Below are positions 34,406-48,703 of a DNA stretch of 64,000 nt, in pieces. Position numbers and translations under genes: made by a program. The first letter of the stretch is position 1, and each line of letters starts with the position of its first letter. The notes below the pieces were generated by a model that did no database searches, had not been told where the DNA came from, and saw only the letters and a program-made list of their open reading frames with translations. The DNA is from Gemmatimonadota bacterium (GTDB lineage Bacteria > Gemmatimonadota > Gemmatimonadetes > Longimicrobiales > Gaopeijiaceae), in the NCBI GenBank assembly GCA_021295815.1, contig JAGWBQ010000002.1:1-64000 (forward strand). Reading direction: 5' to 3'.

Positions 34406-36118
34406 CTACATCGACATCTTTCGGGCGGGTTCGGGCTGCCGAACCACCCCTTCGACCCTCGCGAGCACGAGCGCCGAAGATTCCGCCATCTCACGGTAGT
34501 AGCCGACGAACCTGTCGGTCTCCGTCGCGTCGTACTCCGCCAGATTCTCGGCCCACCGATAGGCGATGGGCTGGAACCACAGCTCGGCTTCGACCCTGAA
34601 GGGGCCGCTCGACGGGTTCACCGCGACCGAGTAGCGCACGGCGTCCGATCCGGGCAGGAAGTCGGAATCGTCGGTCGCGGCTCCTGCGGGACGGGTCCGC
34701 GAATCGGCCGATGCCGCGTCGTAGCCCAGCGGGAGGATGCGGTTGTCCTTGGTCCAGCTCGCGGCCGACATCAGTCCGGTGGTGATTTCGCCCGCGGCGT
34801 TAGCCATGACGCCCTGGTAGACCTGAACCTGGTCCGACGACTCGATCATGTCGTAATGCGGCTCGAAATCCTTGCCGTCGAGATCGTGGTCGTCCCCCGC
34901 CACGCTGCCGTCCGGCGCGAACGCCCCTGACTCGAACACCCTGTTCCCGTCCGCGTCCATCACCGCGAACCTGATCCAGGCGCGGCGCGAGGGATATGCG
35001 GTGGGGAATTTGTGGCCGGCCAGGTTGCGCACGAGCACGGTGGCTTCGAGCCTGCCCTCACCCACGCCCACCCCGACAAGTTCGAGCTCGACCGTGGCAG
35101 TCCGCAGATGATCGGCGGTTCGCGCGGCGGCGATTTCTAGCTCCTGCGGCAGGGCCGTCACTCCGAGCTCGCTCCGGAAGCGGTTCAACATACGGAGCAT
35201 GAAGAAATTGCCGCCCCGAAAAACGTGTCGGGAAACCTCCGGACGCGCCTGCCCGAGCACCATGGTCACGGGAACGTCTTCAGCGACTTCCGGCATGTGG
35301 CAGTCCTGGCAGCTCCGCTCGAGGAATCCGCCCTCGGCGTAGTCGCTCGCCAGCCACTCCAGATAAGGCGACTGTTCGGGGAACGCGGTTTCGGTTCCGC
35401 CGTCGCGCACCGGACGGGTGATGACGGTGTGGCAACTGGCGCAGAATCCCGAAGAGGTGACGTGTTCGCCCAGACGAGGTTCGAACCCGGTGGCGGAGTG
35501 CATGATGCCCGCGCCGCCGGCGTCGGGTTCGAATGGACCGAATAGAGCTCGTGCGTTGGGATCGCCGGCGCCTGCTCCGCTTGACGATCCGCTTGCCATT
35601 CCCGCGATGTGGAAGCGAGCGGTGAAGCTCTCCTCCTCGCCGAGACCGTCGGGCTGGATCTGATGGCAAAGTGCGCACGACACTCCGTCTGCCGCAAGAT
35701 CGGCGAACTCGCCTCCGGCGCCCCCGACGGGTAGGTTGGCGAAGACCTGTCCGATCTCTCCAGTCGCCGCTGCGGCGACGCTCGCCATGGGCATGTGACA
35801 GCGGGCGCACTCGCCCTCGATGTCCGCGGCCGCGTTCGGATAGTCCATGATCTCGCGTCTGACTGCGGCTTGGAAGTAGGGGTCGCGAGCGCTGTTGGCC
35901 ATCATGGAGGCGCGCCAGTCGAACCCTATGGAGAGGTCGTCGCCGTCCGGGCCGAACACCCCCTTGTGGCAGGCGATGCAGCGACCCGAGGTGCGGAAGA
36001 GTTCGCCGGGGTTCTCCTGAGCGGGCGCATCGAGAGCGGCGAGAGCGAGGGCTGCGGCCGCCAGGGGCGCCGCGCCGGGCCGCCGGCTTCGCGATTTGGT
36101 CGATATCACCCTCACCAC
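34406..36118 (-). CDS. Secreted pentaheme c-type cytochrome
   Basis: Exported multiheme protein of 570 residues. A basic N-terminus and Ala-rich hydrophobic segment end at DAPA before Gln-Glu-Asn. Five CxxCH heme sites are seen in order: CIACH, CARCH, CALCH, CASCH and CQDCH, all in the first 300 residues and spaced like cytochrome c554/NrfB-type electron carriers. The C-terminal half, with GHKFPTAYPSRRAWIRF, has no CxxCH and looks beta-rich. GTG at 36118 or 36115 overlaps the end of the cytochrome-barrel gene. It is most likely a periplasmic or surface electron carrier; substrate reduction is unproven. Confidence 0.82.
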   Translation of the reverse strand: MVRVISTKSRSRRPGAAPLAAAALALAALDAPAQENPGELFRTSGRCIACHKGVFGPDGDDLSIGFDWRASMMANSARDPYFQAAVRREIMDYPNAAADIEGECARCHMPMASVAAAATGEIGQVFANLPVGGAGGEFADLAADGVSCALCHQIQPDGLGEEESFTARFHIAGMASGSSSGAGAGDPNARALFGPFEPDAGGAGIMHSATGFEPRLGEHVTSSGFCASCHTVITRPVRDGGTETAFPEQSPYLEWLASDYAEGGFLERSCQDCHMPEVAEDVPVTMVLGQARPEVSRHVFRGGNFFMLRMLNRFRSELGVTALPQELEIAAARTADHLRTATVELELVGVGVGEGRLEATVLVRNLAGHKFPTAYPSRRAWIRFAVMDADGNRVFESGAFAPDGSVAGDDHDLDGKDFEPHYDMIESSDQVQVYQGVMANAAGEITTGLMSAASWTKDNRILPLGYDAASADSRTRPAGAATDDSDFLPGSDAVRYSVAVNPSSGPFRVEAELWFQPIAYRWAENLAEYDATETDRFVGYYREMAESSALVLARVEGVVRQPEPARKMSM

Positions 36119-37329
36119 CCCTCGAAGAAGCCGCCGTCGAACCAGTCGAGAAGCAGGTAAAGGAAGAGTCGGGGCCGACGGGAGTCAACGGCCTCCCCCA
36201 CCGGGAGCATGACCCCGACGTTGGCAAGCACGTGCTGACGGGTGTTGAGCGCCACTTGCACTTGCGGCACGAGGTCCATGGTCGTGGTCCCGCCGTCCTC
36301 CAGACCCAGCTTGGCCTGGAATTCCAGCATGGGAGACCATGTGCGCCCCCATGGTCCCTCGGTTCGGCTCAATCCAAGCAGGACGCGTGCGAAGGCCTGG
36401 TCGCGCCCGTCCTCGTACAAAGGAAGCCCGTAACGGTAGTGGGCCCCTACCTCCATCCCCCCTTGCGCCTGCAGAAACGCGTCCGAGGGCAGGAGCTGAC
36501 CTGCGGAGAGGAAGATTTCCAGAGCCCCCTCGCCACCCTGTTCGCGCGGGCTCGTGGGGAGAATCGCCTCGCCCATGATCGAGAGGATGGCACCTCGTTC
36601 CAGCGAATGGTAGAAGGCGTGCTTCCAACCGAGGGAGACGTTGCCGACCGTCAAATCTCCGGTCGGTTCGCCTTCGTCGACCAGCGCCCCGCCTTCCCCT
36701 TCTCTGCGAGACACCTCGCCGCCCTCCCGCCTCCAGCGGAAAGGAACGGCCACTTCAAGCTGACTCCGAGGGCCGAAACGATGCTCGTAGACGTAGGCTC
36801 CACCCGCGTCGCCTCCGTCTTCGATGTCGAAGTCGGCTTCGATCACCCATTCGTCTTCGGGATACGCCTTCTCCGTCAACAGCGCTCGGGGCAGGTTCAA
36901 CTCCCCCCTCGGCCAGGCCTCGTCGGTGCACAGGGTCCGGATGTGGCCCATGACTCGGGCAAGCTGCTCCTCGGTCAGGGCTCCTCTGAACGCCGGCATC
37001 ATCTCGCTGAACCCCCTGACCGGCCCTCCCTCGTGGGCGACCGCTATCCAGTCGCCGTCCGGTTCCCGAGCCGCGAAGTCGCAGTCCGAGAAGTCGGGAA
37101 GCTCCTCTTCGAATCCGACCAGGGACGGGGGCAGGCCGGTTCCGTCCATCCCGTGGCAGTTGGCGCACGACCCTGAGTAGATCCGTTCGCCGCTCGCGTC
37201 GACCAGCTCGGCTCCGGTGGCCGGCGGATAATTCTGAGCCGCCAACGCGGCCGGCACCACTGCGAGCGCACAAGCCGGCAGCGCCGCCGAGGTCAACCGA
37301 CGACAGGCCATGCGGACGGCCGTATTCAC
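36112..37329 (-). CDS. Cytochrome c fused to predicted outer-membrane beta-barrel
   Basis: Two-part exported protein of 405 residues. After a signal peptide ending LAA before Gln, residues about 35-135 form a single-heme cytochrome c domain: GSCANCHGMDGTGLPPSL with CxxCH, and EMMPAFRGALTEEQLARV with the axial Met. Residues about 160-405 alternate polar and hydrophobic strands with aromatic ends (LEVAVPFRWR, AFLQAQGGMEVGAHYRYGLP, LFLYLLLDWF), the look of an outer-membrane barrel. The GTG overlaps the stop of the VPS10 gene, and its own stop overlaps the pentaheme start, so three genes form one operon. The barrel call is inferred. Confidence 0.72.
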   Translation of the reverse strand: MNTAVRMACRRLTSAALPACALAVVPAALAAQNYPPATGAELVDASGERIYSGSCANCHGMDGTGLPPSLVGFEEELPDFSDCDFAAREPDGDWIAVAHEGGPVRGFSEMMPAFRGALTEEQLARVMGHIRTLCTDEAWPRGELNLPRALLTEKAYPEDEWVIEADFDIEDGGDAGGAYVYEHRFGPRSQLEVAVPFRWRREGGEVSRREGEGGALVDEGEPTGDLTVGNVSLGWKHAFYHSLERGAILSIMGEAILPTSPREQGGEGALEIFLSAGQLLPSDAFLQAQGGMEVGAHYRYGLPLYEDGRDQAFARVLLGLSRTEGPWGRTWSPMLEFQAKLGLEDGGTTTMDLVPQVQVALNTRQHVLANVGVMLPVGEAVDSRRPRLFLYLLLDWFDGGFFEGW

Positions 37330-40300
37330 GAGATCACCCTCATGCCTTCCGCCGTCAACCGTGAGTTGAATTCGGCGAGATCCTCCTCCATCAGGCGCGA
37401 AATGTCTCCGGCGATCCGCGCCAGTCGTTCCTCGAGGATGACCTTGACCTCCACGGCCGAATCGGTCGGGCGGAAATCGGCCACGCTCACGGCGGACATC
37501 AGATAGTTGAGTCTCTCCATCAGCCTGGTCGGGTAGCGGATCCCGTCCTGGCCGGTGCCCGTGGCGCGGAGTTGAAAGAGCCCCTCCTCGGCTTCGACGA
37601 ACCTCGCTTCCAAGGAGTCGGCGGCTTCCGCCAGCGTATCGAGTCCGTCATGGTCATCGCCATCGGCACGCTCTCTGAGCGCATCCGCGACATCGAGAAG
37701 TTGCCGACGCACCGACTCCACGGCGTTGACGAGAGCCGCAGCGCTGTCGGCGCTCGACCGCAGCTCCGTCAGCATCCCGAACTGCTCGGCGATCTCCTCC
37801 TCCGATCCTTCGGAGTGCGGGTCCTTGAGAACCTCGAGCTCCCGGGTCATCGCGGCGCCCTCCGCCTCCACCCCGTCCAGGTGCAGAGTGACCGTGTAGG
37901 TCCCAGGCTTCTGGAGCAGGGCGCTGGGACCGGGTCCGCCGAACAGTCCGCCGGGGAAGGGGCGCTCCCGCTCCTCGCCCAGCTCGAAGTCGTCGGCATG
38001 CATCGGCTTGGTGCGCAGCCGAATGTCGCGGATCGGTTCTCCTCTCAGATCCCACCACACGCGGTTCACTCCAGCCTGCCCGGTTCCCGCCAGTTCTCGC
38101 ACGGTCTCCCCGGAGGCGTCGGCTATCTCCAGCGAGACCGGGCCGTCGACACCGTCGCGCAGCCAGTAGCTGATGGACGCGCCGTAGGGCGGATTTTCGC
38201 CGTCCGACTGATCGTCCGACATGGAGAACTCTTCCGAAACCGGTCGGAATCTCCACGCTTCCCGGGGGCTGAAGAGATGCGCCGGCGATGCCGCCACCTC
38301 GGCAGTGAGCTGCTGGAGCGGCGTGACATCGTCGAGTATCCAAAATCCGCGCCCGTAGGTGCCGATCACGAGATCGTTGAAGCGCTCCTGGACCACGATG
38401 CCGTACATGGGGGAATGGGGAAGGTTCGTGTGGAGCGACTGCCAGGAATCGCCGTCGTCGAAGGAGAGCCAGAGGCTCGCCTCCGTCCCCAGGTAGAGCA
38501 GACCGGGTCGCACGGGGTCTTCTTGGACGCTGCGCGTGTAGCTGAGGACGCCGTCGTCGATGCCGCCGGAGATCGGGGTCCAACTCTCGCCGTAGTCCTC
38601 CGTCCTGTAGGCGCGGGCCTCGAAGTCGCCCACCTGGTGGTGCTCGATCACCATGTAGGCCTTCCCCGTGGCGTGGCGGGAGGCGTCGATTCCCCTGACC
38701 ACGCCGTCGGGCGGGAGGTCGGGGACGTTTCGGGTGACGTCGGTCCAGCTTTCGCCGCCGTCCCTGCTCACCTGCACGAGGCCGTCGTTCGTTCCCGCCC
38801 AGAAAACTCCCTCCTCCAGGGGCGACTCGTCGAACGCGTAAATGACGCAGCAGAACTCGACCCCGATGTTGTCCGGTGTGAGCCCTCCGCTGATCCCCAT
38901 GCGGGATCGGTCGTTGGTAGTGAGGTCGGGAGAGATCACCTCCCAGCTCTGACCGCGGTTCCGGGTGCGGTGCACGTGCTGCGAGGTGACGTAAACGGTC
39001 TCGTTGTCGTGAGGGGAGATGAGAAGGGGGAAGGTCCACTGGAAGCGGTAGCGGACGGAGTCGGCGGGATGACCTGTCGTCGTCTCGGGCCAGACCTCGG
39101 TTTCGCGGTACTGGCGGCTCTCCGAGTTCCAGCGCACGACGATGCCGCCGCCGGCACCCGCCCCGGAAGCGCTCGACCACACGATCCGCGGATCGGTCGG
39201 GTCAGGCGTGGCGAATCCCGACTCGCCGCCGCCGACCGTGTGCCAGAGGCCGCGCGGAATCCCGCCCGCGATGAAGCCGCCCTGAAGGCGCGAGTTGCTC
39301 GGGCCGCGGGTGGAGGGGCCGTCCTGGCGGTTGCCGAGAACGTTGTAGGGTATGGCGTCGTCCGCAGTGACGTGGTACATCTGAGCAACCGGAAGCTGAA
39401 TCCGGAACCAACTCCTGCCCCGGTCGTTCGAAAACGAGACGCCTCCATCTCCGGCCACAGCCTGACGTTCGCCGTCGGTGGGATCGATCCACATGTCGTG
39501 GTGATCCCAATTGGGGGCTTGGCCGAAGGCCGCCGACTCCGAGGTCACCCCGCCGTCGAGCGAATAGGAGTACGCCGCGGCGAGAAAGAAGATCTCGTTC
39601 TCGTTGTCGGGACTCACCTCGCAGCGGCTATAGTAGGCGGTGCGCCCTGCGAGGTCGCGGTCGTAGCTGGTCAGCGCCCAGTTCGCGCCGCCGTCGTCGC
39701 TGCGCCAAAGCTCGCCGCCGGTGGTCTCGCCTCCCTCCCAAGGTACGCCGTCGCCGGTCTCGATGAGCGCGTAGATGCGCCGTGGGTTGTCGGGGCTCGT
39801 GCACAGGGCGATCTTGCCCACGTCGGTTTCCGGCAGGCCGGCGCCTTCGAGTCGGGTCCAGGTGTCGCCGCCGTCCCGCGACATGTGGATGGCGCTGCCG
39901 GGGCCGCCCGAACGGCGGTTCCAGGTGCGGATGGCGAGCTGCCAGGTGCCCGCGAAGAGCGTGCGCGGATTGGACGGGTCCATGACGAGATCGCTGGCGC
40001 CGGTCTCCTCGTCGACGAAGAGAACGTGTTCCCAGTTCCGCCCCCCGTCGACGGTCCGGTAAACGCCGCGGTCCGGCTGTGGCGAATAGCCGTGACCCAT
40101 CGCGGCCGCGTAGACGACGTCCGGGTCGGTGGGATGAACGATGATGCGGGAAATGCGCCCGGTGGCGTCGAGCCCCATGTGCTCCCAGCTCTCGCCCGCG
40201 TCGAGCGAGCGCCAGACGCCGTTTCCGATGGAGACGTTCGAGCGGATGAAGGGCTCTCCGGTCCCGACCCAGACGATGCTCGGATCGGAACGTGAGACCG

Positions 40301-40604
40301 CCACCTCGCCGATGGCGTGGATCTTGTGATCGTCGAAGACGGGGCGCCATTGGAGGCCGCCGGTCTCTGTCTTCCAGACCCCGCCGGACGCCGCGCCGAC
40401 GTAGTAGGTCAAACGGTCGCCGGGCACCCCGGACACCGAGGTGATGCGGTTGCCCACGGGTCCGATGTGGCGGAAACGCAGCGCATCGAGCGCGGAGGTC
40501 GGGATTTCCTGACCTGAAGCTCCAGGCCTCCCGCCGAGCAGGGTCAGGCCTAGCGCGAGGAGCGAACAGGAGCGGAGGAAGGAAAGGCGGGGAACGGGGA
40601 GCAT
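37326..40604 (-). CDS. Secreted VPS10/sortilin-type BNR-repeat protein
   Basis: 1092-residue exported protein. A signal peptide ends GASG before Gln-Glu-Ile. Two sortilin-like propellers follow, with many BNR Asp-boxes such as SRDGGDTW, SNDRGRSW, SRDGGESW and SFDDGDSW, and blocks such as GGVWKTETGG. From about residue 780, an Ig-like FlgD-type segment (RVWWDLRGEPI) and a helical C-terminal region finish the chain. This architecture is common in Gemmatimonadota and Bacteroidota and is often labelled a glycosyl hydrolase, but no catalytic pair is evident. ATG 40604 is chosen since upstream sequence reads as a shadow frame. It is first in the cytochrome operon. Confidence 0.82.
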   Translation of the reverse strand: MLPVPRLSFLRSCSLLALGLTLLGGRPGASGQEIPTSALDALRFRHIGPVGNRITSVSGVPGDRLTYYVGAASGGVWKTETGGLQWRPVFDDHKIHAIGEVAVSRSDPSIVWVGTGEPFIRSNVSIGNGVWRSLDAGESWEHMGLDATGRISRIIVHPTDPDVVYAAAMGHGYSPQPDRGVYRTVDGGRNWEHVLFVDEETGASDLVMDPSNPRTLFAGTWQLAIRTWNRRSGGPGSAIHMSRDGGDTWTRLEGAGLPETDVGKIALCTSPDNPRRIYALIETGDGVPWEGGETTGGELWRSDDGGANWALTSYDRDLAGRTAYYSRCEVSPDNENEIFFLAAAYSYSLDGGVTSESAAFGQAPNWDHHDMWIDPTDGERQAVAGDGGVSFSNDRGRSWFRIQLPVAQMYHVTADDAIPYNVLGNRQDGPSTRGPSNSRLQGGFIAGGIPRGLWHTVGGGESGFATPDPTDPRIVWSSASGAGAGGGIVVRWNSESRQYRETEVWPETTTGHPADSVRYRFQWTFPLLISPHDNETVYVTSQHVHRTRNRGQSWEVISPDLTTNDRSRMGISGGLTPDNIGVEFCCVIYAFDESPLEEGVFWAGTNDGLVQVSRDGGESWTDVTRNVPDLPPDGVVRGIDASRHATGKAYMVIEHHQVGDFEARAYRTEDYGESWTPISGGIDDGVLSYTRSVQEDPVRPGLLYLGTEASLWLSFDDGDSWQSLHTNLPHSPMYGIVVQERFNDLVIGTYGRGFWILDDVTPLQQLTAEVAASPAHLFSPREAWRFRPVSEEFSMSDDQSDGENPPYGASISYWLRDGVDGPVSLEIADASGETVRELAGTGQAGVNRVWWDLRGEPIRDIRLRTKPMHADDFELGEERERPFPGGLFGGPGPSALLQKPGTYTVTLHLDGVEAEGAAMTRELEVLKDPHSEGSEEEIAEQFGMLTELRSSADSAAALVNAVESVRRQLLDVADALRERADGDDHDGLDTLAEAADSLEARFVEAEEGLFQLRATGTGQDGIRYPTRLMERLNYLMSAVSVADFRPTDSAVEVKVILEERLARIAGDISRLMEEDLAEFNSRLTAEGMRVIS

Positions 40605-40923
40605 GCGGACGGACGGAGGGAGGTTGGACGGGTCGAGAATTGTGCGGGCGATGGCGCGCAACGCGATCTCGCGTCGCCCGGTCCTGACGCCACGATACCT
40701 GCGGAGGGCCGGGCTCGCAAGGGCATGGCGCAAACACGCCACGCGCATCGAGGATTCCCTTGCATCCTGTCGCTCCGAGCCTCTCCGGCGTCCGCCGCCT
40801 GTCGCTATCTTCACGGATGCCGTTCGAGAGCGCCCGCTGGCGCCGCCACGTCAAGCCAAGTTCATCGGTCATCGCCGGTCGAGCGGGGACCGCCCTCCCG
40901 ATCGTCACCCAGGGTTCGACGAG
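40605..40923. other. Divergent intergenic region, VPS10 gene / MATE gene
   Basis: About 320 bp without a supported gene. It must hold promoters for both the minus-strand cytochrome operon and the plus-strand MATE gene, but no clear -35/-10 pair was recognised. The MATE frame is open through it, so the MATE start could lie further left. Confidence 0.5.
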
Positions 40924-42675: not shown

Positions 42676-43349
42676 GCGACAACCGGCGCGTTCCGGCGGC
42701 GGTCTGGATCGTGCTCGGCGTCGTCCTGGGCGTCGTGATCGCTCGGACCGGCTTCCCTGACGGATGGCGCTGGACGTCCTCACCTTTGACCCTGAACCCC
42801 GGCATGGCCGCACCGGACGGGGCTGCCCAAGCCGCCGAACGGGCAAGCTGGACCGCCCTCGCCCACGAGACGGTCGGTCGGCACGGCGCGATCGAGCCGA
42901 TCCTCGGGAAAGGCGCGACCGTGCGCCTGCTGGTGCGGCTGGCCGAGCAGGAAGGCTACCGCGCACATCCCTATCCCGACGCCGAAGGCTGGACGGTCGG
43001 CATCGGCAAGCACGCGGGTGTGACCCACGCTCATCCGCTCGTCACAAGGAGGGAGGCGCTGGAACAGGCGCTGGCCGACGCGCGGACCCAATGCGGGCGG
43101 TTCGAGACCGGATGGCCGCCGCTGATGCAACAGCCGATAGGTCTGCGCATCGCCCTCTGCGACGCGGCGTTCCAGCTGGGCTCCGACGGGTTGCTGAGCT
43201 TCCAATTGGCGCTGGGGGCTCTGGAGACCGGCGATTGCGATCAGGCTGCTTGGGAATTCCGGGATTCGAGGTGGACCGACGACACGCCGCGCAGGGTGGC
43301 GGCGCTGGCGAGCACCATACTGGAGACCTGCACAATGGGAACACCATGA
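42672..43349 (+). CDS. Membrane-anchored phage-type lysozyme (GH24)
   Basis: 225-residue muramidase of the T4/P21 endolysin family. An N-terminal anchor (VWIVLGVVLGVVIA) is followed by a linker and the lysozyme domain from about residue 85. Catalytic triad: Glu94 and Asp103, eight residues apart, then Thr108 in EGYRAHPYPDAEGWTVGIG; the Asp-Thr spacing is one residue shorter than in T4 lysozyme. The rest (LCDAAFQLGSDGLLSFQLALGALETGD) fits the helical GH24 lobe. No other phage genes are nearby, so it is a domesticated or chromosomal enzyme. It overlaps the peptidase gene as ATGA. Confidence 0.82.
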   Translation: MSDNRRVPAAVWIVLGVVLGVVIARTGFPDGWRWTSSPLTLNPGMAAPDGAAQAAERASWTALAHETVGRHGAIEPILGKGATVRLLVRLAEQEGYRAHPYPDAEGWTVGIGKHAGVTHAHPLVTRREALEQALADARTQCGRFETGWPPLMQQPIGLRIALCDAAFQLGSDGLLSFQLALGALETGDCDQAAWEFRDSRWTDDTPRRVAALASTILETCTMGTP

Positions 43350-44827
43350 ACGCTTCCTGCCGCCCCCGCTCCACTCCGGAGAAGTCCGCCGCGGAGGAAC
43401 GCGGCCGTACGGAATCGGTGTCCCGGCTCGCCGCCCGAACCCCGAGGCCGCCTTTCGCCGCGCTGCTCGCGGGTGCCCTGTCGTGCGCCTCACTTCTGCC
43501 CGCCGGCGCCGGGGCTCAGGCACCTGCGGTCCTCCCCGAAGGCGTTCCCGCCCGGATCCAGCCTCTTCCCTCGCTCAGGCAGCAGGCCGAGGAACAGCAG
43601 GAGTGGCTCCGCCTCCGGCTCGAGCGCGTACTTCCCAGGCTGATGACGGAATACGACGTCCGCATGTGGATCCTCTCCATGCGAGAATACGCCGAAGATC
43701 CCGTCTTCGACGCCATCAAGTCGCCCACGACCTTCGCGGCCCGGCGTCGATCCATCTACGTCTTCACCAGACAGGAAGACGGCAGCGTGGAACGGCTCGC
43801 CCTCGGCGGAACGAGCCAGGGCGGACTCTTCACGGCATACCGTTCCACCCGTCCGGCGCCTACCCGGGAGACGGTGGAGCTGTGGGGAAGCGAGCAGTGG
43901 ACGCTGCTGAGGGAGGTCGTCGAGGATCGCGATCCTGAGAACATCGTCCTCAACATCGACCCGGTTTGGGCTTTTTCCGACGGACTGCACGCCGGGGAAC
44001 GGGAGGCTCTCGAGGAAGGGCTGGGAGCCGAATACGTAGCGCGGGTCAAGCGGGAGCCCCGCCTCGCGATGAACTACATCGCACTCCGTCCGCCCGAGAT
44101 GATGCGGCGCTACCGAAAGATCCAGGAGACCGTGCACGCGGTGATCTCGGAGGCGTTCTCGAACGCGGTCGTCACTCCCGGCGCGACCACGACCGAGGAC
44201 GTGCGCTGGTGGCTACGCCAGCGCGTGCGCGATCTCGGCTACACAACCTGGTTCCACACCTCGGTCGACGTCCAGCGCGACGGGGAGCTTCCGGCGGACG
44301 GGCCGGTCGTCATCGAGCGGGGCGACCTGCTCTGGACCGACTTCGGCACCCAGGCGATGAATCTCCACACCGACACCCAGCATCTCGGCTACGTCCTGCG
44401 CGAAGGCGAGACCGGGCCTCCCGCAGGGCTTGTTCGTTGCCTGGCCCGATCGAACCGCCTCCAGGACATCCTTCTCGAGAACATGGAACCGGGGCTGACC
44501 GGCAATCAGATACTCGGTGCGGCTCTGGCCCAGATGCGCGAGGAAGGGATCGACGGCACAATCTATACGCATCCCATCGGCGATCACGGCCACGGGGCCG
44601 GCCCGCTCATCGGGCTGTGGGACCGTCAGGAGGGCGTGCCCGGCAGGGGCGACGCGGTGCTGCTGCCCTCCACCTGGCACTCCATCGAGCTACAGGCGAC
44701 CGTCCCGATCGACGAGTGGGGCGGGAAGCCCGCGAGATGCAGGCAGGAGGAAGAGGCCTACCTCGACACCGAGGGCGACCGCCACTGGGCGTTCAGACGC
44801 CAGACCGAGTTCCACATAGTCTGGTAG
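43346..44827 (+). CDS. Secreted M24 family metallopeptidase (Xaa-Pro aminopeptidase-like)
   Basis: 493-residue exported pita-bread peptidase. A long basic N-terminus precedes a hydrophobic signal (FAALLAGALSCASLLPAGAGA before Gln). The C-terminal catalytic half keeps all five metal ligands of M24: Asp in LLWTDFG, Asp in NLHTDTQHLG, His in DHGHGAGPLIG, Glu in HSIELQATV, and Glu in RQEEEAYLD. The N-terminal creatinase-like domain is DVRMWILSMREY-type. The ATG overlaps the lysozyme stop, linking a wall hydrolase to a peptidase. The likely role is degrading proline-containing peptides outside the cytoplasm. Confidence 0.86.
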   Translation: MNASCRPRSTPEKSAAEERGRTESVSRLAARTPRPPFAALLAGALSCASLLPAGAGAQAPAVLPEGVPARIQPLPSLRQQAEEQQEWLRLRLERVLPRLMTEYDVRMWILSMREYAEDPVFDAIKSPTTFAARRRSIYVFTRQEDGSVERLALGGTSQGGLFTAYRSTRPAPTRETVELWGSEQWTLLREVVEDRDPENIVLNIDPVWAFSDGLHAGEREALEEGLGAEYVARVKREPRLAMNYIALRPPEMMRRYRKIQETVHAVISEAFSNAVVTPGATTTEDVRWWLRQRVRDLGYTTWFHTSVDVQRDGELPADGPVVIERGDLLWTDFGTQAMNLHTDTQHLGYVLREGETGPPAGLVRCLARSNRLQDILLENMEPGLTGNQILGAALAQMREEGIDGTIYTHPIGDHGHGAGPLIGLWDRQEGVPGRGDAVLLPSTWHSIELQATVPIDEWGGKPARCRQEEEAYLDTEGDRHWAFRRQTEFHIVW

Positions 44828-44889: not shown

Positions 44890-46002
44890 TTAGTTCGCGG
44901 TGCGTACCGCCTGCACGATCGCCCGGGCGAGCGCGTCCGCCGCGAGCGCTCCCACCAGCATCACGTCGGCGCCGCTCTCCAGAGTGCCGGTCGCAAGTGA
45001 AAAGACGGTGTCTCCGTCGCTGGGCGTGTGGGCGGGATAGATAGCTCTGGCGATGCCGTCCTGGGCCATCTGAGCCACCTTGGTCGCCTGTGCCTTGGTG
45101 AGGACGGCGTTGGTGGCGACCACGGCTATGGTCGTGTTCGCTCCGGGTAGAGAAGTGAGTGCGGCTCCGGCTCCCGCAGCGTTGCGCCCCGGCGCTGCAC
45201 GCCCGCGCAGGACGAGCCGGGCGTCGAGCAGTTCGCCGCTCGCCGGATCCCGGATCCCGGCCACCACCTCGCCGGTTCCCGGGTCGATCACGTCGCCGAC
45301 CGAGTTGACGACGACCGCTGCGGCCACCACCAGACCGTTCTCCATCCGGATGGCGAAGTTGCCGAATCCGCCCGCCATCGCCCGTTCGGCTCCCATGAGC
45401 TTGCCCACGGTGGCGCCTGCACCTGCGCCGACCCGTCCGACGAGGGCGGGTGGCGGAGGATTCTCGCTTTCGGCTCGCGCCATCCGCTCCGCCGCCATCT
45501 CGCTCGCCTCGTATCCGCACTCGGGGCCGGGTCGGACTTTGGTCTCCCCCTCGAGTCCGAGATCGTAAATGATCGCGCCGGCCACGATCGGCACGTTCTT
45601 CGAGCCGACCTTGAACCCGATGTCACGCTCATCGAGCGCCCGCACCAAACCGTCGCGTACCGCGAGCCCGAACGCGGATCCGCCCGAGAGAAAGAGACCG
45701 TGCACCACCGAAACGGTGTTCACGGGGTCGAGCAGGTCGGTCTCGACCGTTCCCGGCGCACCGCCGCGCACGTCCACGCCTCCCACAGCCCCTCCCGGAA
45801 CCCAGATCACGGTGCATCCGGTCGGCCTCTCCGAGAGCGTGCGGTGCCCGATCGCCACGCCGGCCACCGCCTCGATTCCGCGGTCCTCGTTTTCCGGCGA
45901 CTGGCCCTGGGCCGTCGCCCCAGGGCCTAAGGCGGCGAAAGCGGCCGCGCCGGCCAGAAGCGCCCGGACCTGACCGGAGGGCCGGGTCCGGTCATGGTTC
46001 AC
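44890..46002 (-). CDS. Secreted P1 family peptidase (DmpA/L-aminopeptidase type)
   Basis: 370-residue self-processing Ntn-type peptidase. A short signal (ALLAGAAAFAALGPGATA before Gln) leads into AGVAIGHRTLSERPTGCTV, the family opening, then VHGLFLSGGSAFGL and GRVGAGAGATVGKLMG. The processing site region is ANTTIAVVATNAVLT, with a Thr in the nucleophile position as in many bacterial relatives of DmpA. It ends in SLATGTLESGAD. GTG 46002 overlaps the stop of the PQQ dehydrogenase gene; the longer frame into that gene is a shadow. Known relatives release N-terminal D- or beta-residues; specificity here is unknown. Confidence 0.86.
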   Translation of the reverse strand: MNHDRTRPSGQVRALLAGAAAFAALGPGATAQGQSPENEDRGIEAVAGVAIGHRTLSERPTGCTVIWVPGGAVGGVDVRGGAPGTVETDLLDPVNTVSVVHGLFLSGGSAFGLAVRDGLVRALDERDIGFKVGSKNVPIVAGAIIYDLGLEGETKVRPGPECGYEASEMAAERMARAESENPPPPALVGRVGAGAGATVGKLMGAERAMAGGFGNFAIRMENGLVVAAAVVVNSVGDVIDPGTGEVVAGIRDPASGELLDARLVLRGRAAPGRNAAGAGAALTSLPGANTTIAVVATNAVLTKAQATKVAQMAQDGIARAIYPAHTPSDGDTVFSLATGTLESGADVMLVGALAADALARAIVQAVRTAN

Positions 46003-47990
46003 TGAGGAGGCAGGCGCAGCGCCACGAGCGATCCGCTCATGCCGGCTCCGCCTACCGAGAGAACGACGTATTGAACGCCTTCGTGCACGTAGCTCATGGG
46101 AGCTGTCGTCGTCGGAGCGGGGATCTCGACCGAACCCAGGTGCTCGCCGGTCATCTTGTCGACACCGTGGAGGAGAGGCGCCTGACCCCGTCCCTCCGCG
46201 TACAGGAACATCGTCTTCGTCACCACGGCGGTGGCGTGGCCGTTGCTTCCGGTGTTGCCGGTCTCGACGCCTTGGAGATCCGGGTGGTTGCGGATGCGCT
46301 CGGGCGTGAACCCGTTCGGGATGCTCCAGAGATGCTCGCCGGTGTTCATGTCGATGGCCGTGATGCTCGCGTAAGGCGGTTTCCACAAAGGCAGCCCCCG
46401 AAGGCTGGGCACCCCTCCCGGACCCACCGAGACGTAGTCGACGTTCGACTCCGGATCGACCTCGGTCCCGGGCCGCAGCCGAGGAGCGCTGCATCCTCGC
46501 TGGCTCGCGGTGTAGAGTATTCCGGTTTCCGGGTCGGCCACCGTTCCCCCGGGGATGTTGGTGCCGCCGTTCGCCCCCGGGCAGTGAATCGCGCCGAGTA
46601 TCCCGTCTTCGTCAGTGACCATGGGCGGGTTGAAGAGAGGACCCATCCGAAAGCGGCTCAGGATTTCCATGGCCTGCGCTCTGAGCTCGGGCGTGAAGTC
46701 GACGATGTCGTCCTCGCCGAGCCCCTGCATCTCGTACGGCGCCGGCCAGGTGGGAAAGGGTTGGGTGGGCGAGGTCCACTCGCCGGGCACGTCGGTCTGC
46801 GGGACCGGTCTCTCCTCGATGGGCCAGATGGGTTCCCCGGTCTCACGATCCAGCACGTAGACGAACGACTGCTTAGTGGTCTGGGCGAGGATCTTGCGCG
46901 GTTCGCCGTCGATGGTCACGTCGAGGAGCGAGGGCTGGGCCGGGTTGTCGTAGTTCCAGATGTCGTGGTGGACCGTCTGAAAGTGCCAGGCCCGTTCGCC
47001 GGTGGCCACGTCGATCGCGAGGATCGTGGTGGAGAAGAGGTTCTCGCCGGGATGGAAGCCTCCGAAGTAGTCGATGGTGGGCGGGTCGGTGCCCACGTAG
47101 ACGAGGCCGAGCTCGGGATCGGCGGTCATGGGCGCCCAGGCGCTGACGTTGCCGGTCCACTGCCAGGCGTCGTTCAGCCAGGTGTCGTTGCCGAACTCGT
47201 CTTCCTGCGGGATGACGTTGAAGGTCCACATGTGCTCCCCGGTCCCCGCGTCGAAGCCCATGATGTTGCCGGGGACGTTCTCCTTTCGGGTCTGGTAGTA
47301 GCCCTGCTCGTGGGAGTTTCCGACCACCACCACGCCGTTCACTATCATCGGCGGCGTCGAATTGGTGATGTAGCCGATCTCGGGCGGAAGGCCGTCTTCC
47401 CGATCATGCTTCCACGGACCCAGGTACTCCAGCAGGTCGACCTCTCCGCTCTCGCCGAACTTCTCCACCGGATAGCCGGTCTCCGCATCGAGCGCCCAGA
47501 GGAAGAAGGCGGGAGTGACCAGGTAGATGCGGTCCTCGTCCCCCACCCGATGGTAGGTGACGCCCTTGCCGTAGTTTTTGCGCATGGAGTCTTCCCAGCG
47601 TTTGGTCGGCGGTTCGCGGAAGGTCCACAAGGTCTCTCCCGTGGACGGGTCGATGGAGACTGCGGTCCGGCGCTGGCCGGCGACCGTGTAGAGCCTGCCG
47701 TCCACGTAGATGGGTGTGGAGCGGAGCAGGGGATCGGGCTCGTTGGGAGAGAAGTTGTCGCCCTTCCAGATCCAGGCGACCTCCAGATCCCGGAAGTTAT
47801 CGGGGCCGATCTGATCAGCCGGGGTGTAGCGCGTACCATAGTAGTCGGCTCCCCAGAAGCGCCATTCGCCTTCGGGCGTGCCGCGTTCCTGCGCCGCGCC
47901 CGCGCCCGCCGGCAAGCTAAGGAGGATGGTGACGGCGGTCCGGACCAAGACGGCCCGGGTCCGAGCCGAAAGCCGGCGAGCGTCCCTCAT
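45999..47990 (-). CDS. Soluble PQQ-dependent dehydrogenase (glucose/quinate/shikimate type)
   Basis: Exported quinoprotein of 663 residues. A signal (VRTAVTILLSLPAGAGA-A before Gln) replaces the five-helix membrane domain of membrane-bound glucose dehydrogenase. The eight-bladed propeller has repeated DxxTGExLW units (DPSTGETLWTF, DAGTGEHMWTF, DVATGERAWHFQ, DMNTGEHLW). HHDIWNYDNPAQPSL is the hallmark of the glucose/quinate/shikimate branch. It oxidises a sugar or polyol in the periplasm and passes electrons on; the acceptor is unknown. ATG 47990 overlaps the lectin-like gene. No pqq biosynthesis gene is in the window. Confidence 0.86.
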   Translation of the reverse strand: MRDARRLSARTRAVLVRTAVTILLSLPAGAGAAQERGTPEGEWRFWGADYYGTRYTPADQIGPDNFRDLEVAWIWKGDNFSPNEPDPLLRSTPIYVDGRLYTVAGQRRTAVSIDPSTGETLWTFREPPTKRWEDSMRKNYGKGVTYHRVGDEDRIYLVTPAFFLWALDAETGYPVEKFGESGEVDLLEYLGPWKHDREDGLPPEIGYITNSTPPMIVNGVVVVGNSHEQGYYQTRKENVPGNIMGFDAGTGEHMWTFNVIPQEDEFGNDTWLNDAWQWTGNVSAWAPMTADPELGLVYVGTDPPTIDYFGGFHPGENLFSTTILAIDVATGERAWHFQTVHHDIWNYDNPAQPSLLDVTIDGEPRKILAQTTKQSFVYVLDRETGEPIWPIEERPVPQTDVPGEWTSPTQPFPTWPAPYEMQGLGEDDIVDFTPELRAQAMEILSRFRMGPLFNPPMVTDEDGILGAIHCPGANGGTNIPGGTVADPETGILYTASQRGCSAPRLRPGTEVDPESNVDYVSVGPGGVPSLRGLPLWKPPYASITAIDMNTGEHLWSIPNGFTPERIRNHPDLQGVETGNTGSNGHATAVVTKTMFLYAEGRGQAPLLHGVDKMTGEHLGSVEIPAPTTTAPMSYVHEGVQYVVLSVGGAGMSGSLVALRLPPQ

Positions 47991-48703
47991 CGCACGGTCC
48001 TCATAGCACCGAGAAGGGAGGGCGACGGCGGGTTCGGCGGAGTGGTCGCGAAGCAGTAGTAGAAGCCGTTGCCGCCCGTGGCCTGAAGGTTGGCCTGGCT
48101 GCATCCCCGGGAAGAGTGGGCCGAGTTCCAGGAGGTCGGGTTCTCGCCCCCGCCCGTACGGTCGTGGTGTCCGACGCGGGCGCTTCCCGAACCGTCGCTC
48201 GCGCTAGTCCAGTTGTCGCAGTTGTCGTAGCCCTCGCCGCCCATGTAGGCCATTCCGTCGAGCGTCGATCCGGTCAGGATGTCGTGCATGTTGGGGGAGT
48301 CGCCCCGCCCGTTCACCATCTCGCCCGTCTCGGTGAGGATGGTCTCCTTGGTGAGGTTGGCGTCGTCGGTGTGGAGTTGATCCGGATCGCGGGCGATTTC
48401 GACCCCGCCGTAGTTGTGCCATGGTCCGCCGCCGATGCGGTCGCGGGCGTGAACGGCCTCTTCGCCGTCCGCCGGTATCGCGCTCAGGTAGGCCATCCAG
48501 GTGGCTTCCCCGGCGTCGACGGCCTCCGCCAGACTCTGGCAGTGCGCGTCCGCTCCTTCGAGGCCGCCCAAGTTGGCGCCGTCGCCGGGACCTTCGCTGG
48601 TGATGAAGAAGCTCATGTTCGCATCCTGGCTCCCGAACGACGGGACCGGGAAGGCGACGATGGCCAGCACGGCCGCGAAAGTGGTCAGTGTACTCTGCTT
48701 CAC
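47987..48703 (-). CDS. Secreted lectin-like (collagenase NC10/endostatin-like fold) protein
   Basis: 238-residue exported protein. GTG 48703 follows AGGGAG by 8 nt. The signal (FAAVLAIVAFPVPSFGS before Gln-Asp) is followed by FFITSEGPGDGANLGG and ADAHCQSLAEAVDAG, the opening typical of proteins annotated as lectin or endostatin-like. Four Cys residues (HCQSL, DNCDNW, RGCSQ, YYCFA) and the WHNYGGVEIARDPDQLH block support that fold. It precedes and overlaps a PQQ sugar dehydrogenase, so a role in binding sugar or holding the dehydrogenase near its substrate is a fair inference. Confidence 0.7.
   Translation of the reverse strand: MKQSTLTTFAAVLAIVAFPVPSFGSQDANMSFFITSEGPGDGANLGGLEGADAHCQSLAEAVDAGEATWMAYLSAIPADGEEAVHARDRIGGGPWHNYGGVEIARDPDQLHTDDANLTKETILTETGEMVNGRGDSPNMHDILTGSTLDGMAYMGGEGYDNCDNWTSASDGSGSARVGHHDRTGGGENPTSWNSAHSSRGCSQANLQATGGNGFYYCFATTPPNPPSPSLLGAMRTVR

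Follow-up and report, generated by a model that had tools for sequence, protein, structure and literature searches.

A conserved gene pair encodes a pentaheme cytochrome and a monoheme cytochrome c that carries a predicted outer-membrane barrel

Three genes on the minus strand of a 64,000-nucleotide stretch of Gemmatimonadota DNA (contig JAGWBQ010000002.1; the window) raise the question of whether their products work together to pass electrons across the outer membrane. A preliminary description had read them as a VPS10 propeller, a one-heme cytochrome fused to a barrel and an exported five-heme cytochrome, which together could make up a porin-cytochrome conduit. The three open reading frames are present as first described, overlapping by a few bases (ORF list and junction check), and are flanked by a convergent mgtE on one side and a divergent MATE transporter gene on the other. 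The propeller reading frame extends over 37326-40814, with a better ATG at 40604. The features of the locus are:

37326..40604, minus strand: VPS10/BNR propeller gene, a local upstream neighbour that overlaps gene 1 of the pair and lies outside the conserved module
36112..37329, minus strand: gene 1 of the pair, monoheme cytochrome c with a predicted 12-strand outer-membrane barrel, 405 aa (Pfam, AlphaFold, fold matches, orthologues)
36928..37200, minus strand: class I cytochrome c domain, residues 44-134, with CANCH at 55-59 and Met111 (Pfam, conservation)
36853..36927, minus strand: connector, residues 135-159 (WPRGELNLPRALLTEKAYPEDE), before strand 1, the probable barrel plug (conservation, COG4313 structure)
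36145..36852, minus strand: predicted 12-strand barrel, residues 160-395 (AlphaFold, fold matches, alternation test, PF13557 in homologues)
36115..36144, minus strand: conserved C-terminal tail WFDGGFFEGW, predicted to lie on the periplasmic side (conservation, predicted topology)
34406..36118, minus strand: gene 2 of the pair, pentaheme cytochrome c of c552/ExtKL (PHC) type, 570 aa (motifs, model, fold match)
34424..35107, minus strand: pentaheme C-terminal beta domain, residues 338-565, with the invariant His369 in NLAGHK (model, fold match, conservation)

The two cytochromes

As modelled, the 405-residue protein consists of a class I monoheme cytochrome c joined to a predicted outer-membrane barrel of 12 strands, and the fusion first proposed for it holds up. 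Its single CXXCH lies in a cytochrome c domain (PF13442, 6.5e-8; PF00034, 1.3e-6), and AlphaFold, run with 69 homologues, predicted 12 strands over residues 160-395 (pLDDT 83.2, pTM 0.79), a barrel rather than a soluble fold. Neither this model nor that of the pentaheme protein contains heme. The C-terminal half had no match in a Pfam search, PF13557 included; that profile, of the COG4313 family, is matched by 48 of the 69 homologues (best 6.4e-9), the window protein itself not among them. The best structural matches of the model are 12-strand outer-membrane barrels, the nearest solved folds being FapF (Z 20.9; Foldseek 1.1e-8), the COG4313 channel Pput2725 (Z 20.1; for 4rl8, over 222 residues with rmsd 4.4), KdgM (Z 19.8) and NanC (Z 18.6), and the copper barrel PcoB is also among the matches (Z 12.9). 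In a test independent of the AlphaFold tertiary fold, the inside/outside alternation of strand hydrophobicity was 1.40, against 0.64 +/- 0.13 in shuffled columns, a value reached by none of 5000 shuffles.

All 69 homologues have one CXXCH and an aromatic C-terminal residue, and the terminal Trp of the tail is invariant. Met111 is also invariant and, judging from the alignment, is probably the axial ligand of the heme. Conservation is highest in the C-terminal tail (0.85), with the connector second only to it (0.80) and the barrel at 0.53. The crystallised COG4313 channel has the stretch ahead of strand 1 tucked into its lumen, where it blocks the pore (PMC4493636). This position, together with the conservation, suggests that the connector may be a lumen plug bearing the heme domain. 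The predicted periplasmic turns are better conserved (0.75) than the extracellular loops (0.36), though outer-membrane proteins in general often vary in such loops. The lumen face is net acidic in every one of the 69 homologues, with a mean net charge of -6.3.

The second protein fits the exported five-heme cytochrome of the preliminary description. Five CXXCH motifs occur in its 570 residues (at 47, 104, 148, 226 and 270), and among solved structures its AlphaFold model (pLDDT 85.8) finds a single clear relative, the penta-heme cytochrome c552 of Thermochromatium tepidum (Z 24.4 and rmsd 2.9 for 351 residues at 20% identity; Foldseek 1.5e-13). It has the features by which the PHC family is recognised, five hemes and a C-terminal beta domain with the c552 fold, and shares them with both c552 and ExtKL. 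Unlike ExtKL itself, it scores 31.8 bits against the ExtKL model (NF040886), far under the curated equivalog cut-off of 250; 48 of 50 pentaheme homologues also match this model below the cut-off. Several residues outside the heme motifs are nearly invariant, including His219, His298, His369 and His421, with Met73 and others, and the four histidines make at least four bis-His hemes plausible. Cable-bacteria pentahemes have been grouped with ExtKL in a published analysis, which noted their likeness to c552 and refers to a proposal that c552 is related to archaeal cytochrome nanowires (PMC11976967).

Conservation of the pair and its exceptions

A full-length homologue of the barrel-cytochrome gene was found in 13 of 57 relatives, with the pentaheme gene directly downstream in 12 of them; in the thirteenth the contig ends about 1.1 kb past the barrel gene, and no pentaheme gene lies within that stretch. 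The surroundings of the pair differ in every one of these genomes. Scanning named genomes turned up 137 relatives; the 80 retained are mostly metagenome bins, and some come from the same genomes as among the 13. The pentaheme gene directly follows the barrel gene in 72 of these 80 loci, and the hosts include Gemmatimonadota, Acidobacteriota, Aminicenantes, Latescibacterota, Balneolota, Rhodothermaceae, Gammaproteobacteria, Planctomycetes and others. As this adjacency recurs across many phyla, it is not due to chance, and the barrel-cytochrome and the pentaheme protein are a conserved two-gene module. No other neighbouring family occurs in more than 12 of the 80 loci, and those that recur do so apparently among close relatives. 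Distances among the barrel-cytochromes track those among the pentaheme proteins (Mantel r 0.78, 50 pairs), as common descent alone could bring about. No barrel gene was found on plasmids.

The gene order expected from the preliminary description is thus conserved for the barrel and pentaheme genes and not for the propeller. The 37326-40604 product is a sortilin/VPS10-type propeller (PF15902, 2.4e-24), and among the compared loci its gene adjoins the pair in this genome only. Just one VPS10 homologue lies near another pair on the same strand, about 5 kb from the barrel gene, at L056 (same genome as L117); at L094, a locus without the pentaheme gene, a VPS10 homologue follows on the opposite strand. 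The window's own 2.47 Mb genome has 17 further stretches that match the propeller, amounting to at least 15 other genes. The propeller belongs to a lineage-abundant family that is strongly expanded here, and its adjacency to the pair is most simply incidental. With no conserved adjacency and so many homologues elsewhere in the genome, we rejected it as a member of the module.

The partner of the barrel-cytochrome is not always the pentaheme protein. Palauibacter and related bins have no pentaheme gene; in its place, a protein of about 260 aa begins at most about 40 bases from where the barrel gene ends. Five of these slot proteins share invariant H141, C179, H182 and M185 (H...C-x2-H-x2-M), and a His with C-x2-H-x2-M is the ligand set of type 1 copper. 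Solved structures gave no cupredoxin match for the slot protein, and we call it cupredoxin-like provisionally, because its match to the cupredoxin profile PF13473 is weak (E 0.067). The five proteins (L108:9160-9909, L112:9136-9912, L115:2918-3721, L094:9123-9932 and L156:7097-7867) also have a CarboxypepD_reg-like C-terminal domain. Within family f7, four genomes encode the cupredoxin-like protein next to the barrel and lack a pentaheme orthologue, and two have the pentaheme; both states are present within genus g94 (G160 and G165). A search of the window's own genome with the cupredoxin-like profile gave no match.

Two other families depart from the pair in different ways. Family f4 has a diverged barrel-cytochrome without any pentaheme in nine genomes, so the pentaheme partner is not obligatory. 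At the f4 loci (L143, L145-L148) a 5'-deoxyadenosine deaminase-like gene lies just upstream, across genera, with an MsrP-like oxidoreductase and a b-type cytochrome nearby. The sampled genomes of family f3 have no barrel gene. Their six-heme proteins (L060:8879-11500, L061:8565-11219 and L062:2928-5711) combine an N-terminal P460-type domain (PF16694, below cut-off) with a pentaheme c552-like domain.

Comparison with known cytochrome-porin systems

Like MtrAB, MtoAB and PioAB, the pair combines an outer-membrane barrel with a multiheme cytochrome. MtrB-type porins form 26 strands around a decaheme protein (PMC8406198). That decaheme is a separate, enclosed protein, whereas here a single heme is fused to a barrel of 12 predicted strands, and the pentaheme appears too large to insert into it. 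The MtrAB-like conduit first suggested is therefore unlikely, as a barrel of this predicted size, set against the published 26-strand porins (PMC8406198), would be too narrow for a heme chain and could not enclose a multiheme protein. The MtrB/PioB porin model TIGR03509 had no hit in the window's own genome, but its controls gave none either.

The covalent joining of heme and barrel had also been taken as unusual, a view that overlooks Cyc2 and Cyc572. Cyc2 unites a monoheme cytochrome and a 16-strand porin in one protein whose oxidation of Fe(II) has been demonstrated, and Cyc572 too is described as a fusion of cytochrome and porin (PMC8406198, PMC10654088). Like these proteins, the barrel-cytochrome is exported, carries its one CXXCH in an N-terminal domain joined to an outer-membrane barrel, is spread widely over the phyla and has a soluble electron carrier downstream. 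It is not, however, a Cyc2. The Cyc2 family has the motif AXPXFAR[QK][TY] upstream of CXXCH and a 16-strand OprO/OprP-like barrel (PMC8406198), whereas PXFAR occurs in none of the 69 barrel-cytochrome homologues and the predicted 12-strand barrel resembles COG4313 and FapF rather than OprP. On these grounds we rejected membership of the family. The cytochrome domain here is also a full class I domain, in contrast to the short one of Cyc2, and the pentaheme is a fixed partner. Cyc2 is nevertheless the closest functional analogue, and the pair looks like a separate, uncharacterised counterpart of it.

The barrel half resembles the COG4313/Phenol_MetA_deg channels (Pput2725, SphA) in its 12 predicted strands, in the PF13557 matches among its homologues and in a conserved stretch ahead of strand 1, where those channels have their lumen plug. 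Unlike the fusion, they show no heme domain in the structure that has been solved. ExtI, the porin beside ExtKL, is said to lack a heme motif and to resemble phosphate-selective porins. In open-access papers and the named family libraries we found no account of a 12-strand cytochrome fusion or of its pairing with a pentaheme protein.

Possible roles of the pair

Our preferred reading, held tentatively and at somewhat less than an even chance, is that the pair acts as a small Cyc2-like redox gate at the outer membrane, with the pentaheme or the cupredoxin-like protein as carrier. Its computed parts are the fusion, the barrel prediction, the heme motifs, the pentaheme fold, the conserved pairing and the partner swap; its orientation, plug, electron flow and substrate are what we infer. 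The barrel protein would span the outer membrane, its class I heme domain facing the periplasm and its connector closing the lumen as a plug. From outside, the narrow acidic barrel would admit a metal ion or a small, diffusible redox compound, and this would trade one electron with the heme at the periplasmic end of the pore. We place the heme domain there because both ends of the barrel should be periplasmic, as in Cyc2; in that position the heme would meet only substrate that enters the pore. The electron would then move between the heme and its carrier, which would be the pentaheme c552-type protein or, in some lineages, the cupredoxin-like protein, and so connect with the respiratory chain. 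We tentatively favour electron uptake, that is oxidation of the substrate. One COX1-type oxidase is encoded in the window's own genome, which makes uptake of electrons to oxygen possible without proving it. In favour of the gate count the barrel prediction with its strand alternation, the acidic lumen, the conservation of connector and periplasmic turns, the likeness of the pentaheme to a solved electron-transfer cytochrome, the adjacency of the pair and the swap of its partner. In Acidithiobacillus the carrier downstream of Cyc2 is rusticyanin, a cupredoxin, and the cupredoxin-like partner supports the redox gate by matching this arrangement. The Cyc2/rusticyanin pathway is named in PMC10654088. 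It counts against the gate that most hosts belong to uncultured lineages, that we know of no record of metal oxidation among them, and that the diverged barrel-cytochrome of f4 does without the pentaheme.

A substrate channel with a tethered carrier would explain some of the same features. The COG4313-like barrel would import a small, perhaps hydrophobic compound, the pentaheme would be a periplasmic redox enzyme acting on that compound, and the fused cytochrome would dock this enzyme at the pore and feed it electrons. The barrel half does match the COG4313 channels in predicted fold, as most homologues match their profile PF13557, and such channels have been implicated in the uptake of hydrophobic molecules (PMC4493636), and the sub-threshold ExtKL matches of the pentaheme homologues point towards a protein with a proposed role in selenite reduction (PMC5877670); the P460 domain fused to the pentaheme in f3 relatives also fits an enzyme. 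We nevertheless think this rather unlikely, as the cupredoxin-like replacement suggests that the pentaheme is a carrier and not the sole catalyst, and the lumen is polar and acidic. That conserved acidity would suit another role, in which the barrel binds Fe, Cu or Mn and oxidises or reduces it for uptake or detoxification rather than for energy. PcoB is among the structural matches, but such matches are unspecific among 12-strand barrels, and no metal-transport or efflux genes are conserved beside the pair in the 80 loci, leaving redox-coupled metal handling improbable. Least probable by far is a three-part conduit in which the VPS10 surface protein, the barrel-cytochrome and the pentaheme pass electrons to an external solid acceptor. 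The genes overlap in this genome, but the propeller does not travel with the pair and has its many homologues elsewhere, and one heme in a 12-strand barrel would, going by the model, leave no heme chain across the membrane.

The redox gate can be extended to a broader claim, which we doubt more than we trust but regard as possible: that the pair represents a second, independently evolved class of fused cytochrome-porin, with a 12-strand COG4313-type barrel and an exchangeable periplasmic carrier (pentaheme or blue-copper-like), giving many aerobic lineages of soil and sea a way to draw in electrons from outside the cell. If this is true, outer-membrane electron exchange by a fused cytochrome-barrel reaches far beyond the Cyc2 family, into abundant Gemmatimonadota, Acidobacteriota and other lineages, hosts for which we know of no record of such exchange by a fusion of this kind. 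Present iron-gene models, built on the Cyc2 motif, would then miss the barrel-cytochrome. The exchange of a pentaheme for a copper-type protein in one gene slot offers a natural test of which carrier receives the electrons of the barrel heme, and Fodinibius sediminis DSM 21194, a culture-collection strain of the Balneolota that carries the intact pair, offers a direct way into experiment.

A few kb from the pair, the window also encodes a PQQ-type quinoprotein dehydrogenase (45999-48104, minus strand; PF01011, 2.8e-169), a possible separate electron source. Beyond the MATE gene are an M24 metallopeptidase (42764-44827, plus strand; PF00557) and a Peptidase S58 family protein (44890-46494, minus strand; PF03576).
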